Below, in pieces: positions 7,005 through 21,521 of a stretch of 22,333 nucleotides of DNA (positions are counted from its first letter, which is position 1; each line of letters opens with the position of its first letter). The position numbers and the translations under genes are program-made. The notes beneath the pieces are model-generated. The model saw nothing but the letters and a program-made list of their open reading frames with translations. It was not told the DNA's origin and ran no database searches. Where the stretch lies: positions 1-22,333 of the IMG/VR virus record IMGVR_UViG_3300046009_011038. One strand, given 5' to 3'. Origin of the DNA: a virus.

Positions 7005-8050
7005 ACTAAAACCTCCTGTTGTTTATATGCATAAATATCGCGGAACCGTAAAAGGGCCAATTCTTTACCTTTAGCCTCGATCATAATATCTAAAGGTAAT
7101 CCATATGTCTCAATAGGACCTTTGATATAATCGGCATGCGCTGTTTCTTTAATCTTATCAAATTCACGTTTATACTCTGCTAATGTCGGCCATTTGTCAA
7201 TATCATCAATATTGATATTGTTAGTCTTACACATATTATCTAGAAGTAATTGATATTCGCTACGTCGCGATTCTGACCAATGCGTAGCTTGTCGTATATG
7301 TGCCGGCCAAGTCTCACGCGCCAACATTAATGCGTCATACTCACTCAAACCATCTGTATGAAACTTATGATGATAATAGTCAAATGTAATAGGAATACCA
7401 ACGTTAACGTATAGAAAATTGTATAGCATTTGTACACTATACATACTAGCCTTATCATCATTTTCAACGACTAATCGGCGTTTCAAATTATCAGATAAGC
7501 GATCATAATTCCTAAGCCACGTCATTGCAGCTCGTTCAGGATTACCATATGCCCCGCCTAGATGTATATTGATCTTGTTCTCAAATGATGGCTCATAACC
7601 CATTAGGTCAAACATCTCGGAATGACGTTCAAGTCCAATAATAGACTTGTTAACAACTGCCTCATGAGGAGAACATAATATATGAAATTGTCCTGGATGG
7701 GTAGTCAATCGATGGCCATGTAATCGAGCAAAGTCGCCACATTCGCGTAGCTTAGCAGCTAGCGCGTCATAGTTAGGTAGATCGTTAAGCTCGTAATGAT
7801 CATGCCATGGAATAAGCTCAGAACCGATACGAAACAATGTAATGCCATTCTCTTGATTCCATTTAAGATAATGTAATAGATCCGTAGCATTTTGTAAAGC
7901 CAATTCGCCGAGCTTGGCCAACTCCCAACGTGGCTGCCAGGAATCTTTTCGAATGGTACGGCTGGTAGTAACACGTCCGCCTAATTTCTTTGGTCGGTTA
8001 GTTAATGTCATATTGACACAGGCATAACCTAATCTTACATTTTCATTCAT
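7001..8050 (-). CDS. uvsE: UV-damage endonuclease UvsE/UVDE
   Basis: 349 aa from the ATG at 8050. I choose this start because NVRLGYACVN (residues 4-13) is the expected N-terminus of the family; an in-frame ATG 17 codons upstream would lie inside the promoter element. Family motifs follow in order: FRIGSELIP (73-81), LTTHPGQF (115-122), NIHLGGAYG (161-169), ENDD (196-199), FDYYHHK (223-229) and HWSE (257-260), supplying the metal-binding His, Glu and Asp residues of the TIM barrel. UVDE nicks DNA 5' of UV photoproducts, starting excision repair, which suits a phage exposed to sunlight. A copy of the four-member promoter cassette precedes it. Confidence 0.92.
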   Translation of the reverse strand: MNENVRLGYACVNMTLTNRPKKLGGRVTTSRTIRKDSWQPRWELAKLGELALQNATDLLHYLKWNQENGITLFRIGSELIPWHDHYELNDLPNYDALAAKLRECGDFARLHGHRLTTHPGQFHILCSPHEAVVNKSIIGLERHSEMFDLMGYEPSFENKINIHLGGAYGNPERAAMTWLRNYDRLSDNLKRRLVVENDDKASMYSVQMLYNFLYVNVGIPITFDYYHHKFHTDGLSEYDALMLARETWPAHIRQATHWSESRRSEYQLLLDNMCKTNNINIDDIDKWPTLAEYKREFDKIKETAHADYIKGPIETYGLPLDIMIEAKGKELALLRFRDIYAYKQQEVLV

Positions 8051-8064
8051 ATGATATTTTTTTA

Positions 8065-8099
8065 TATACTTAATGATAAGTGAAAACCCGTACGAATCC
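8065..8099 (-). promoter_or_regulatory. promoter-like cassette, copy 1 (uvsE)
   Basis: Coding strand: GGATTCGTAC, then 9 nt, then CTTATCATTAAGTATA, ending 14 nt before the uvsE ATG. The same two blocks with the same spacing occur at 13817, 19262 and 21397. It can be read as a -10 TATCAT with a 17-nt spacer to TTGGAT. Unlike the others, this copy lacks the TTGATWATCAA dyad upstream. Confidence 0.6.
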
Positions 8100-13784: not shown

Positions 13785-13816
13785 CTTGTGTATTTTTTAT
13801 TTGCATATCTTTTTTC

Positions 13817-13851
13817 TATACTTAATGATAAGGACTTTTAGGTACGAATCC
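13817..13851 (-). promoter_or_regulatory. promoter-like cassette, copy 2
   Basis: Coding strand: CTAGGATTCGTAC, then CTTATCATTAAGTATA at the same spacing as copies 1 and 4, preceded by TGTAACTTTTCTTACTTTTT, an A/T-rich stretch that could act as an UP element. It ends 32 nt before the ATG at 13784. Possible -10 TATCAT and -35 TAGGAT with a 17-nt spacer. Confidence 0.6.
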
Positions 13852-13881
13852 TAGAAAAAAGTAAGAAAAGTTACAGAAAAG

Positions 13882-13960
13882 TGTAACTCATTGATAATCA
13901 ATTGGTTATAAAGTACTGATTTACAATAGATTATAAGTTGTTGATTATCAATGAGTTACA
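13882..13960. repeat. 20-bp perfect inverted repeat with TTGATWATCAA dyads
   Basis: TGTAACTCATTGATAATCAA (13882-13901) and its exact reverse complement (13941-13960) flank a 39-nt A/T-rich spacer. Each arm contains the 11-bp dyad TTGATWATCAA, which also occurs upstream of cassette copies 3 and 4. It could be a pair of operator sites, an enhancer or a replication-initiation site. Confidence 0.7.
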
Positions 13961-15178: not shown

Positions 15179-15622
15179 TTAGTTGACACCTTTCACGCCA
15201 GCGCCTTTAATAGCTTTCTTAACTTGTGCTGGTGACATTTTAGAATAAACGTAAGCAGTGAAGCCGATACCAGACTCACCATTATCATTTTTCATTGCAT
15301 GTATTTTGACATTCTTAACGTCATCACCGCCGAGGCTAGCCATACCTTCTGCACGATCACCTTGAATAGCTTGTGCAACTTGCTTAGCCATTTTGAATGC
15401 AGCATTTGCATTTTTAGCAACATTGTTGATATTTAATCGCTCTCTATCAGAATGGAAGTAAGATACGGCATATTCATATTCACCCTGACCGCCTTCGTCT
15501 GGGGTCATACCTGAATTACGCCACATTACAAACTCTTTTGGAAGTGCAAAGGTTGCTTCATTTAAGCCTGTCATGTTTTTTACTTCTTCACGTATCAAAT
15601 TTCTTAATTGTAATTTGTTCAT
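15179..15622 (-). CDS. tagged soluble protein (MNKLQLRNLIREE)
   Basis: 147 aa. Tag MNKLQLRNLIREEVKNM, then L20-N-E22/A23, a textbook T4-type protease site. The mature protein is mixed alpha/beta with WRNSGMTPDEGGQGEYEY, FHSDRERLNINNVAKNANA and a Lys-rich end (AQVKKAIKGAGVKGVN). AAAGGAT precedes the ATG. No known family. It lies 3 nt before the next downstream ribosome-site region, in one unit with the other tagged genes. Confidence 0.72.
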   Translation of the reverse strand: MNKLQLRNLIREEVKNMTGLNEATFALPKEFVMWRNSGMTPDEGGQGEYEYAVSYFHSDRERLNINNVAKNANAAFKMAKQVAQAIQGDRAEGMASLGGDDVKNVKIHAMKNDNGESGIGFTAYVYSKMSPAQVKKAIKGAGVKGVN

Positions 15623-15631
15623 TTATATCCT

Positions 15632-15883
15632 TTATAGTTCATGATACCCTACACGGGCCTGATTGATAAAATTATAGCTTTGTGTGATATGGTCTTGAAT
15701 CCAACCCGGTAGGTTGATTTCATTAGTACCAATTAATTGTGATAGTTCTACAGCTGCTTTAGCTATTTCCTGTAGTTGCGCTTGTGCCATACCCACCTCA
15801 TGGTCTTGGCCTGGTAAACCAGTTTCTGATAAACGTAATTCTCGAGGTATACGGGCGTTACGCTGTAAACGTTCAATGTTCAT
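15632..15883 (-). CDS. small helical structural-type protein (LPGWIQDHI)
   Basis: 83 aa. A basic start (IERLQRNARIPRELRL) leads to L18-S-E20/T21, another L-x-E site, then a helix-rich body with LQEIAKAAVELSQLI and the end NLPGWIQDHITQSYNFINQA. The 'LP-W-Q-HI--A-NYI-QA' ending is a pattern I associate with packaged or scaffold-related proteins of aquatic T4-like phages. It lies in the tagged block, 9 nt before the next gene. Function unknown. Confidence 0.65.
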   Translation of the reverse strand: MNIERLQRNARIPRELRLSETGLPGQDHEVGMAQAQLQEIAKAAVELSQLIGTNEINLPGWIQDHITQSYNFINQARVGYHEL

Positions 15884-15904
15884 AATTTATAATCCTTAAA
15901 TGGT

Positions 15905-17598: not shown

Positions 17599-17833
17599 AG
17601 TTGATCGTATATTGGTTATATTGTCTATCATTACTGTATGTTTGGTCGTAGTACTTACGTGCAAAGGCACGGGCTGAAGCTTCGGTCGGTAGGTTGATTT
17701 CTGCATCCATCCAGGCCCGTTCAATCTGTTCCTGCTCTAGCATCAAGAAGTATTCCTTGATCTCTGCTATCTCCGATATCCGCCCTTCGTCGAGCATATC
17801 GTATAGCTTCATCACAGCTGTCTTGTTACTCAT
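17588..17833 (-). CDS. hypothetical protein, 81 aa
   Basis: 81 aa, helical: KLYDMLDEGRISEIAEIKEY (9-28), then FLMLEQEQIERAWMDAEI and ASARAFARKYYDQTY. The 'E-Q-I--A---AE...A--YY--TY' ending resembles small proteins common in phages whose role is unknown. It is followed by an 11-nt overlap with the next gene; AAAGGAGGTGAC gives a strong ribosome site before its ATG. Confidence 0.7.
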   Translation of the reverse strand: MSNKTAVMKLYDMLDEGRISEIAEIKEYFLMLEQEQIERAWMDAEINLPTEASARAFARKYYDQTYSNDRQYNQYTINYER

Positions 17834-17846
17834 TTGTCACCTCCTT

Positions 17847-18041
17847 TCATAATTTTTCTATCTCTTGTTTTACTTCCTCCCAAAATGGTTTCATAACCTC
17901 ATAACAATTGAGTAGTATCTCATCTACTGCAATCAAAGCACATTGTTTTGCTCTGTCTAAACAATTTTCTTGTCCTAATTTCCATTGAACGCTAGGATAA
18001 AATTTGTAAACCAACTCTTTTGCCTTGTCTTTTGCTTTCAT
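17847..18041 (-). CDS. hypothetical helical protein, 64 aa
   Basis: 64 aa: KAKDKAKELVYKFYPSVQWK (2-21), CLDRAKQCALIAVDEILLNC and FWEEVKQEIEKL. The 'KAKELV-KFY...AKQCALIAVDEI' pattern is one I recall from many phage genomes, especially of Bacteroidota; function unknown. It overlaps the upstream stop by 4 nt and GGAGGTGACC precedes the ATG. Confidence 0.7.
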   Translation of the reverse strand: MKAKDKAKELVYKFYPSVQWKLGQENCLDRAKQCALIAVDEILLNCYEVMKPFWEEVKQEIEKL

Positions 18042-18262
18042 TGGTCACCTCCAAACAGCTTCATGAATTGTGTCATCCAATAGTTCATAGCCGGCATAGC
18101 TATAACCCCAACGAATAGCACCGCGCCCCAGAGTTGCCACCCACCGCCAGCGGCAGTATCAGCGGCCAAACCTAGTCCATATATGCCCAGGCCCAGAGCG
18201 GAAATGCTCGATGCCCAAACGAAGAGAAAACGGAGGGTGTCCCTCAAAGTGTTGATATTCAT
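18038..18262 (-). CDS. two-span small membrane protein
   Basis: 74 aa: spans at about 10-34 (LRFLFVWASSISALGLGIYG) and 42-60 (LWGAVLFVGVIAMPAMNYW), with a Gly-rich turn AAGGG between and LFGGDQ at the end. It could be a holin-like or membrane-stress protein; size and two spans fit class II holins, but the location far from lysis genes argues for an accessory early membrane protein. ATGA overlap with the next gene. Confidence 0.65.
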   Translation of the reverse strand: MNINTLRDTLRFLFVWASSISALGLGIYGLGLAADTAAGGGWQLWGAVLFVGVIAMPAMNYWMTQFMKLFGGDQ

Positions 18263-18994: not shown

Positions 18995-19243
18995 TTAGGC
19001 ATATCTTAAGGATCTTAAAGATGTACTCCAACTTGCTGCATGGCGCGCATCGCTGATACGGCAAAGTTCCACTAGGGTCAAATCCATCCAGGCATGTGCA
19101 CCATATATTTTCGACTTTAAAGCCTCGGGTAAATCGTCTGGGTCAAATGTTACTGTATTTCCTTTAGCGCTAGTCGCTGATGCTAATGCATTACCATATT
19201 GATTATGGCTTATAAAGGTTGGATATGTCTTCGCTGATGTCAT
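18995..19243 (-). CDS. hypothetical protein, 82 aa
   Basis: 82 aa from the ATG at 19243. An upstream in-frame start would place it inside the promoter cassette, so I reject it. Contents: TSAKTYPTFISHNQYGNALA (2-21), then FDPDDLPEALKSKIYGAHAW and a polar, Arg/Ser-rich end. No known family. It is the first gene after cassette copy 3, 18 nt downstream of the TATA block. Confidence 0.6.
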   Translation of the reverse strand: MTSAKTYPTFISHNQYGNALASATSAKGNTVTFDPDDLPEALKSKIYGAHAWMDLTLVELCRISDARHAASWSTSLRSLRYA

Positions 19244-19261
19244 ATTTGGTATCTTTTTATC

Positions 19262-19296
19262 TATACTTAATAATAAGAGCAAAATGTCATGAATCC
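19262..19296 (-). promoter_or_regulatory. promoter-like cassette, copy 3
   Basis: Coding strand: CTAGGATTC, 13 nt, then CTTATTATTAAGTATA (one base from the consensus 16-mer). The GTAC half of the upstream block is lost here (CATGAC). The block TTTTCTCTAGG and a dyad at 19336 lie further upstream. It ends 18 nt before the ATG at 19243. Confidence 0.55.
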
Positions 19297-19335
19297 TAGA
19301 GAAAAGTTACTTTTTTTCCACTTTTCGGTAACCTG

Positions 19336-19353
19336 TTGATTATCAATGAGTTA
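19336..19353. promoter_or_regulatory. TTGATTATCAA dyad upstream of cassette 3
   Basis: TTGATTATCAATGAGTTA lies about 40 nt upstream of cassette copy 3 and matches 18 nt of the inverted-repeat arm at 13941. Preceded by GTAACC as in the copy at 21471. Candidate operator. Confidence 0.5.
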
Positions 19354-19370
19354 TATCTGTACCATATATG

Positions 19371-19706
19371 TTATGCTGGGCGATATCCTACAAATTCCAT
19401 ACGAGTAGGTTGCACAATACCACGCGCCAACAATGCGGGCCATGTTTCCTGATACATCCAATATCCTGCCATGGCGTCCAATGTGGTAAGCGCGTCTGTG
19501 ACTATCTGGCTGACGCTATATCCTAGTCCATGCTGTACAGCACATATGGCTTGGGCTATATAGCGTACTTCCACCTCGTCTCCAGCGTGAAGCGCGGCAT
19601 GTAGTGCCAAGCGTACAGCGGCACGTCGGGCCTTCATTACTTCGGCGTTATGCGCGTACATTTCGGGACTCCATGGGCGCACTATTTCGATTCCTTGATC
19701 TTGCAT
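19371..19706 (-). CDS. hypothetical protein, 111 aa
   Basis: 111 aa, Ala-rich and helical: VMKARRAAVRLALHAALHAG (23-42), then VRYIAQAICAVQHGLGYSVS and a Trp/Tyr segment (AGYWMYQETWPALLARG). It has a higher GC content than the tail genes. No known family. A TATATAAAAC stretch lies about 10 nt before the ATG and could be a -10 element. Confidence 0.6.
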   Translation of the reverse strand: MQDQGIEIVRPWSPEMYAHNAEVMKARRAAVRLALHAALHAGDEVEVRYIAQAICAVQHGLGYSVSQIVTDALTTLDAMAGYWMYQETWPALLARGIVQPTRMEFVGYRPA

Positions 19707-19966
19707 TGTATTGTTTTATATAAGTATGCTTCCATGCATGGAAGGGTGGCCGCTGGCCAATCTCTCTAAACCGGGGGCTATAGGCGAAAAGCGTTGTTCG
19801 CAATGAAAATCGGTTATTGTCCACCCAAAACCCCGGTTACCCCTATATGTTAAGGAAAACCGGTATATCCCCCTGGTTTGGGGTGGTTTTGGGTGGTTTT
19901 GGGCGGTTTTACCGGATATTACCGGTTTACCCCGGGTATCATCGGGTATGCCGGGGTATGCGGTGC
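19707..19966. repeat. G-rich repeat region, non-coding
   Basis: 260 nt with no gene. Plus strand: palindrome CTTCCATGCATGGAAG (19729-19744); hairpin TGGCC-GCT-GGCCA (19747-19759); CCACCCAAAACC (19821-19832), mirrored by GGTTTTGGGTGG (19885-19896); tandem 10-mers GGGTGGTTTT, GGGTGGTTTT, GGGCGGTTTT (19881-19910); ACCGG repeats; and GGGTAT three times (19934-19958). It has G-quadruplex potential on the plus strand. It could be an origin, a packaging or recombination site, or a strong transcript end. Confidence 0.65.
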
Positions 19967-20389
19967 TTACTCCTCTGCTACGGTAATATTACGCGATCGC
20001 AACCATTCTGCCAGGCTTTCGGTGATAGTAGCGGCTAATGTACTTTCTTCCAACCCTATGCTATCTATATTGATCTGACGGTCATAGTCTATACTTAGCT
20101 CTATATTGCTTTGATCAATGTAATTATCTGCATCGCCTGCTATATGGCTAGCTATATCATCTGCTAGGGTCTCTATGTCTATATATGCAATGCTAGTATT
20201 GGTTTTAGCATTTGCTACGGCCGTAGGGTTCGCCATCGCGGATAGCAAGCGTTGCACATCCATTAGTTGTAATTGGTGCACTATCTGATCGCGCATACCT
20301 AATTCATTGATAATGAATTCCATGGTCTCGCCGTCTACTTCGGCCTGGCGCAGTAGGGTTACTGCGGCTTGGGTTAATGAGTTGTACAT
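19967..20389 (-). CDS. hypothetical protein, 140 aa
   Basis: 140 aa. Helical first half (TQAAVTLLRQAEVDGETMEF, 6-25; VHQLQLMDVQRLLSAMANPT), then an acidic, Ile/Asp-rich second half (DIETLADDIASHIAGDADNY; IDYDRQINIDSIGLE) and a helical end. No domain recognised. It follows the tRNA-like RNA and precedes the repeat region. Function unknown. Confidence 0.65.
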   Translation of the reverse strand: MYNSLTQAAVTLLRQAEVDGETMEFIINELGMRDQIVHQLQLMDVQRLLSAMANPTAVANAKTNTSIAYIDIETLADDIASHIAGDADNYIDQSNIELSIDYDRQINIDSIGLEESTLAATITESLAEWLRSRNITVAEE

Positions 20390-20406: not shown

Positions 20407-20510
20407 GAGCCGGTATAGGGATCGAACCTATACTCCGAACCGATTGGATCTAACGGTCTAGCCATATGGTAGACCCAACACCATCTCGGTACTACCTTTA
20501 GTACCGGCTC
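20407..20510 (-). tRNA. tRNA or tRNA-like RNA, isotype unassigned
   Basis: 104 nt. An 8-bp acceptor-like stem (GAGCCGGT with ACCGGCTC) joins directly to a canonical T arm, ATAGG-TTCGATC-CCTAT. The 5' side gives a short D-like hairpin (ACTA-AAGG-TAGT). The middle (about 58 nt) is too long for a normal tRNA and allows competing stems: TGGTG-TTGGGTC-TACCA with a GGG loop, or GGTCTA/TAGACC with the palindrome CCATATGG in its loop. CCA is not encoded (CTA follows). The 13-bp stacked helix is 1 bp longer than in canonical tRNA, as in tRNA-His or tRNA-Sec. Ends are convincing; the identity is not. Confidence 0.6.
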
Positions 20511-20524
20511 AAGATATAAAGATA

Positions 20525-21376
20525 TTAGATGCCCATTACTTGTTCTGCAATCATCTGCTTCCAATTGCCGAAGCCGGCTTGGCGTATACGAATGCTCTTG
20601 ATCAGGCTACGGAAGTTCAATTCAACTCCGGCATAGGTCTCATATGCTGCTATCAAGGCTTCCAGCGCTTCGGTCTTCTGGCTCATTGGAGCTTTAGGTT
20701 CAATGTCCTTTAGCAAAGCCCTCATACGCTGTATCATTTGCTCATTGGTCAGGCTTATATCCGTTACAAAGCTACGGCTACGGATGGCTGGATCGATTCG
20801 GCTGATATCCATATTGCTAATGAATATCACTTGACCGGTAAAGGTGAAGCTACGCGGCATCTCATCACCATCGCCATCCTTCAACGGCTTGGCCGATATC
20901 CAACTGATAACTCGGCGATCATAACTATCCAACGCACCCTTAAGGACGTTAACGGCATCTACATCACGGAATACCGAATCACAGTCATCAAATATGATCA
21001 GCTTATCACGGTTCTCATACAAGGTAATGAACATACCCGCGGCCGATGCACGACCCTTAACATGCACAAAGTCCCAATTCTCACGCATGCCCATTTGCTC
21101 TAGCATGGCTACTACTTGGTAGGTCTTACCCAATCCAGGCTGGCCGGTAATAACCAGACTTGGTGATATCTTCTTGGCAACCATGGCAGCCATACCCGTC
21201 ATACCTGCGAACATGTCCTCGGCTGAACGACCGGATTGGAACTTGGCAAAATTCATTCGGGTGTCCTTGGTTGGTGCAGCATAGCTATTGCGCTGCTCTG
21301 GGTTCACTTTGCGGGCGGCTAATTGTTTCTGACGCTCACTTACTACTCGGTTTTTGGATCCTTTAGGTCTTGGCAT
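20525..21376 (-). CDS. AAA+ ATPase
   Basis: 283 aa. Walker A GQPGLGKT (78-85), Walker B LIIFDDCD (126-133), sensor 1 FISN (185-188) and an Arg-finger-like RIDPAIRSRS (193-202) give a full AAA+ core; the helical lid follows (LTNEQMIQRMRALLKDI). The N-terminus PRPKGSKNR (2-10) resembles an AT-hook. Phage AAA+ proteins of this type act in DNA handling or as remodelling factors. It opens the unit after promoter cassette copy 4 (20 nt) and precedes the tRNA-like RNA. Substrate unknown. Confidence 0.85.
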   Translation of the reverse strand: MPRPKGSKNRVVSERQKQLAARKVNPEQRNSYAAPTKDTRMNFAKFQSGRSAEDMFAGMTGMAAMVAKKISPSLVITGQPGLGKTYQVVAMLEQMGMRENWDFVHVKGRASAAGMFITLYENRDKLIIFDDCDSVFRDVDAVNVLKGALDSYDRRVISWISAKPLKDGDGDEMPRSFTFTGQVIFISNMDISRIDPAIRSRSFVTDISLTNEQMIQRMRALLKDIEPKAPMSQKTEALEALIAAYETYAGVELNFRSLIKSIRIRQAGFGNWKQMIAEQVMGI

Positions 21377-21396
21377 AATCGGTATATCTTTTATCT

Positions 21397-21431
21397 TATA
21401 CTTAATGATAAGGTAAAACCCGTACGAGTCC
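21397..21431 (-). promoter_or_regulatory. promoter-like cassette, copy 4 (AAA+ gene)
   Basis: Coding strand: CTAGGACTCGTAC then CTTATCATTAAGTATA with the same spacing as copies 1 and 2, preceded by CTTTTCTTACTTTTTT as in copy 2. It ends 20 nt before the AAA+ start. One base of the upstream block differs (GGACTC). Confidence 0.6.
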
Positions 21432-21470
21432 TAGAAAAAAGTAAGAAAAGTTTCAGAAAGTTTAGGTTGT

Positions 21471-21521
21471 AACCAGTTGATTATCAATGCTATATAATGC
21501 ATTAGTAATCAATGAGTTACA
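21471..21521. repeat. imperfect inverted repeat with TTGATTATCAA dyad
   Basis: TTGATTATCAATG (21477-21489) and GTAATCAATGAGTTACA (21505-21521) flank a short A/T-rich spacer and resemble the 20-bp arms at 13882-13960. The outer arm matches the earlier arm except at three positions. The stop codon of the 39-aa peptide lies in this arm (21509-21511). Confidence 0.5.

Follow-up and report, generated by a model that had tools for sequence, protein, structure and literature searches.

Among DNA sites, iteron origins of replication and partition sites are known for numerous direct repeats spaced by about one helical turn. Within the T4 group, the nearest precedent is oriE of phage T4, whose evenly spaced 12-nt repeats have been termed iterons and are conserved in relatives, with an ill-defined role; oriE is the only T4 origin at which repeats have been given that name (PMC3016281). 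In the T4 genome (NC_000866; L359, positions 1403 to 1570), the repeats surrounding oriE are 24 nt long and belong to the coding sequence of gene 5; the published iterons may accordingly mirror repeats in the protein. In some plasmids, the parC sites bound by ParR are direct-repeat arrays of 11 bp (R1) or 10 bp (pB171), usually located upstream of parM (PMC9426499). Arrays of a further kind were seen in another phage group of IMG/VR (L110, L141, L161, L172, L188, and L200), in which GTAAACC boxes at 9 to 10 bp, with inverted copies, directly precede a Toprim/AAA_25 primase-helicase gene and are likely to be replication origins. These were retrieved by searching for the same word that is described below and serve as an analogy, not as independent proof.

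The locus studied here lies in a 22,333-base virus record (IMGVR_UViG_3300046009_011038; G000), the whole of which is referred to as the window. The window is an uncultured T4-like phage with T4-type genes that include a gp25-like baseplate wedge protein, a ClpP-like protease, UvdE, and an AAA+ ATPase of family phrog_1250. Gene leaders have no clear Shine-Dalgarno sequence and the proteins are similar to those of Flavobacterium phages, which suggests a Bacteroidota host. A search with the 140-aa protein encoded next to the element recovered one relative, IMGVR_UViG_3300022752_000171 (39,112 bases; L002, G001), which is collinear with the window at roughly 67 to 79% DNA identity. The element occupies L002 5418-5650, in the gap between the same two genes, with identical gene order and ~75% identity around it. 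The first-pass annotation had named loss from a close relative of unchanged gene order as the observation that would count against a functional site; the relative retains the element. No homolog beyond this relative was found by DNA BLAST of phages, by conserved-core patterns in IMG/VR (among the matches listed), among the AAA neighbors in 80 loci, by a covariance model run over 0.7 Mb of loci, 14 records, and 395 genomes from the phylum of a Bacteroidetes MAG, or by protein search in those 395 genomes. Comparison of the element is thereby one of two sequences (n = 2), the window and L002. Two blocks elsewhere in the window, at 15604-15899 and 17826-18052, share 91% and 98% DNA identity with the relative (L013), compared with ~70 to 75% in the rest of the genome, and appear to be products of recent exchange.

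The element lies in an intergenic gap of 260 nt between two open reading frames (ORFs) on the minus strand (19371-19706 and 19967-20389), as first annotated. Directly upstream is the gene of the 140-aa protein (19967-20389, minus strand), which has no assigned function, an N-terminal segment similar to small Flavobacterium phage proteins, and a predicted structure of low confidence (pLDDT, 44.5). The downstream gene (19371-19706, minus strand) encodes a 111-aa protein, also of unassigned function. In L002, an additional 50-aa ORF separates the element from this downstream gene; the element therefore remains next to the upstream gene rather than serving as a simple 5′ leader. The first gene of the operon that includes the element encodes the phrog_1250 AAA+ ATPase (20525-21376, minus strand), with distant similarity to clamp loaders. 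Within the 140-aa gene, positions 20064-20223 (minus strand) show 80 to 97% DNA identity to the relative, above that of the surrounding gene and with synonymous sites included, which possibly reflects constraint at the nucleic acid level or a recent exchange.

On the minus (sense) strand, ten AWACC boxes form an array within the gap at 19862-19959, and all ten places are kept in the relative (L002 5425-5522). The word reads (A/T)(A/T)ACC, and boxes 1 to 10 occupy 19955-19959, 19945-19949, 19935-19939, 19924-19928, 19914-19918, 19905-19909, 19895-19899, 19885-19889, 19875-19879, and 19862-19866. In both phages, the first box begins 7 nt past the stop codon of the 140-aa gene. The relative has ten boxes at spacings of 10, 10, 11, 10, 9, 10, 10, 11, and 12 nt, while the window has nine that are exact or near-exact, one of them displaced by one base, and a decayed box at 19914-19918 (TATCC, compared with AAACC in the relative). 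Averaged over the first nine boxes, the period is 10.05, and over all ten it is 10.18; phase coherence is maximal at 10.0 to 10.25 bp, falling to 0.2 at 11. The 10-mers one helical turn apart that had first drawn attention (GGGTGGTTTT) are the last few boxes of this longer, conserved array; Tandem Repeats Finder (TRF) reports them as a 10-bp tandem repeat, TGGTTTTGGG, at 19874-19910 (3.7 copies, 92% match). Protein coding was rejected for the stretch, whose ORFs are short and whose 10-nt period is no multiple of a codon.

Chance does not readily produce such an array. The longest WWACC chain among 2,000 dinucleotide shuffles had four members, whereas the relative carries a chain of nine at 9- to 11-nt spacing and of ten at 9 to 12 nt; the chain in the window is two runs of four plus the decayed box, and a single run of four arose in 3 of the 2,000 shuffles. 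The chain occurs once in the window and once in the 39-kb contig of the relative. When ~1.0 Mb of DNA from the window and related phages was scanned for any word of this kind, no other noncoding chain of this length was found; the next longest had six members, within coding repeats or A/T-rich DNA. A further scan for four phased AAACC words returned, among the matches listed, mainly low-complexity sequence or K-P coding repeats.

The two sequences align without an indel over the first 152 columns. With the boxes defined from L002 alone and then scored in the window, 46 of 50 box bases are retained, compared with 28 of 48 spacer bases (Fisher P = 9e-5, columns being treated as independent). Conservation is highest at zero offset, and identity declines smoothly when the frame is slid away. 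The preference also holds at positions left unpaired by the RNA model discussed below (boxes, 22/26; spacers, 8/24), and pairing alone is therefore an insufficient explanation. By itself, the array is not a structured RNA, since in the relative it folds no better than its shuffles (z = −0.14).

These properties lead us to place first, tentatively, the explanation that the element is a DNA platform, similar to iterons, on which an oligomeric DNA-binding protein docks. Ten direct boxes at one per helical turn would present ten sites on a single face of the helix, along which a phage (or host) protein could assemble, wrapping the DNA. The neighboring core, which carries the box word inverted (ACCGGT and AACCGGGGTTTT), might be the part that opens, bends, or extrudes after the array has been occupied. 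As a first guess at its purpose, we name an iteron-type replication origin, although this assignment is doubtful. Direct repeats at about helical-turn spacing, by which iteron origins are recognized, are present in the array, yet we recognized no cognate initiator (Rep) among the neighboring genes, and the genome is incomplete, so that such a gene may lie elsewhere. We therefore claim a working likeness to iteron origins and not membership of that family. The array shares with oriE of T4 its short, even direct repeats and their retention in close relatives, but the oriE repeats are coding and spaced at 24 nt, whereas the repeats described here are noncoding, spaced at ~10 bp, built on another word, and attached to a hairpin. 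Similarly, the arrays of L110, L161, L172, and their kin have intergenic AAACC-containing boxes in direct and inverted orientation; however, they belong to unrelated phages and have shorter spacing (9 to 10 bp), a replication gene directly downstream, and no Y-shaped core. A noncoding, strictly phased, single-word array common to two phages would offer a cleaner test case for initiator-bound arrays in T4-like phages.

The position of the element argues against docking, for it sits in the middle of an operon among hypothetical genes and not beside a recognized replication or partition gene. No DNA-binding domain was recognized in the small neighboring proteins. The origin-type site proposed by the first-pass annotation is matched by the conserved array at helical-turn spacing, which would equally suit other protein-docking sites, but the cumulative GC skew recommended as a check does not turn at the array in the 39-kb contig of the relative and forms just a local plateau in the window. 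A partition (parC-like), packaging, or multi-operator site would operate in the same way as an origin, and the ParR arrays of R1 and pB171 share the spacing of about one helical turn. We regard this substitution as improbable: no ParM- or ParR-like or terminase gene was recognized beside the element within the genes scanned, parC mostly precedes parM whereas the element is intercistronic, and the element lies inside an operon, away from the phage promoter-like sequences mapped.

The second part of the element is a Y-shaped hairpin of 84 nt (the core; 19817-19900, minus strand) whose 5′ arm consists of boxes 7 to 10, so that array and hairpin share sequence. Its stem P2 pairs 19885-19896 with 19821-19832 (12 pairs), and from it branch a side hairpin, P2b (19870-19883, 4 pairs), and a long hairpin, P3 (19833-19863, 12 to 13 pairs). 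The two strands of P2 are the inverted copy noticed at first annotation (CCACCCAAAACC and GGTTTTGGGTGG). The core aligns without gaps to L002 5484-5567 at 93% mean column identity. Among 10,216 windows of 84 nt on both strands of both contigs, it is the most stable, on the sense strand, with folding energies of −43.5 and −42.4 kcal/mol in the two phages and the same shape. The sense fold is more stable than the antisense fold by 6 and 9 kcal/mol; a site that works as double-stranded DNA has no need of such a strand preference, which counts against a docking site. A covariance model of the core (R1) found no additional copy in the 59 sources searched.

A structured RNA is expected to fold with unusual stability on the strand that is transcribed; both phages show this, and an intercistronic regulatory or processing RNA is a possible, second-ranked explanation. 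The transcript would fold at 19817-19900 as a Y, and the CC-rich array would offer an RNA-binding protein multiple landing sites; boxes 7 to 10, when paired within the stem, could provide a switch. Such an RNA could control stability, processing, or termination. Location in an untranslated gap that opens right past a stop codon, the conserved G-U pairs of P3, and compensatory changes in P2b (C-G to U-A) and in an upstream helix are consistent with such an RNA. However, where both sides of a pair vary, two pairs are compensated and two are broken (14-34 and 73-144), a balance equaled by 135 of 500 shuffles. The array portion adds no fold of its own, a flexible RNA would not obviously call for a strict 10-nt spacing, and no Rfam family matches at the gathering score. 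The conserved motif downstream of the core, GAACAnnGCTTTTCGnCTATAG (19778-19799, minus strand; GAACA..CTATAG), likewise has no single helix that is retained in both phages. Should the RNA explanation be true, phages with a probable Bacteroidota host would possess an RNA element that matches no Rfam family.

In general, Rho is taken to require no more than YC dinucleotides. A Rho-dependent terminator, in which a C-rich, G-poor, unstructured rut region past the stop codon is followed by a pause hairpin, would for this reason leave unexplained the conserved AWACC words, their strict spacing, and the 93% conserved core, and we consider it the least probable of the explanations weighed. The array resembles rut sites in that it has repeated C clusters, is followed directly by the hairpin, and has the top 78-nt excess of C over G on the sense strand of both contigs (joint top in the window), in agreement with the general description of rut sites (PMC6407284). 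The more specific rule of a C every 11 to 13 nt (78 nt with C above G; RhoTermPredict, PMC6407284) holds in the window but fails at the array in the relative, and the final boxes are sequestered within the hairpin. Searches for an intrinsic terminator gave hits close to chance level and on the opposite strand.

Collectively, the evidence favors an array that acts as DNA and a core that acts as RNA (or single-stranded DNA). In this comparison of two sequences, in which covariation favors neither explanation, the docking platform keeps first place and the structured RNA follows as a close rival. We also consider, as an unlikely combination, that a helically phased docking array of ten sites and a Y-shaped sense RNA hairpin together form a new bipartite cis-element of phages, in which docking and transcript folding would be mutually exclusive and would link operon transcription to replication or another nucleoprotein event.

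The remaining features of the gap vary in their conservation. A small hairpin, TGGCC-loop-GGCCA (19747-19759, minus strand), has an identical stem and a variable loop in the two phages. The ACCGG and GGGTAT repeats of the first-pass annotation are present, as is its 16-bp palindrome, CTTCCATGCATGGAAG (19729-19744), but the palindrome is missing from the relative and is therefore probably not part of the conserved element. A G-quadruplex, also suggested earlier, was rejected: no motif of four runs of at least three G's, with loops of up to 7 or up to 15, occurs on either strand, and the G-runs of the plus strand drop from six to three in the relative. The description of the stretch as very unlike its flanks applies to most of the contig (GC content of ~0.51 in the 500-bp segment containing the element, compared with 0.35 to 0.40) but not to the right end (17 to 22 kb), which is already at 0.42 to 0.48 throughout. 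As for the A+T-rich unwinding region that would be expected beside the repeats of an iteron origin, a short A/T-rich leader (19707-19728) lies ~90 bp from the core, but such leaders are general among the genes of this phage.

Two other elements were observed on these contigs. A dispersed leader element on the minus strand occurs at 19232-19400, 21371-21496, 13798-13960, and 8049-8099 of the window and in about eight copies in the contig of the relative (L013 and L014). It comprises one to three palindromes like GTAACTCATTGATAATCAATGAGTTAC, an A/T-rich stretch, and TAGGATTCGTACGATTTTG and CTTATTATTAAGTATAGATTAAAG, followed by the start codon. This layout resembles a phage promoter in which an operator is shared, and the copies may define a genome-wide regulon. 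In addition, a tRNA-like element not called by ARAGORN is located at 20407-20510 of the window (minus strand) and at ~4905-4978 of L002 (plus strand). Its acceptor end and T-arm (GGTTCGATCCCTATACCGGCTC) are conserved while its middle is wholly different between the phages, and in L002 a 7-bp stem with a GCAA loop stands at the place expected of the anticodon arm.
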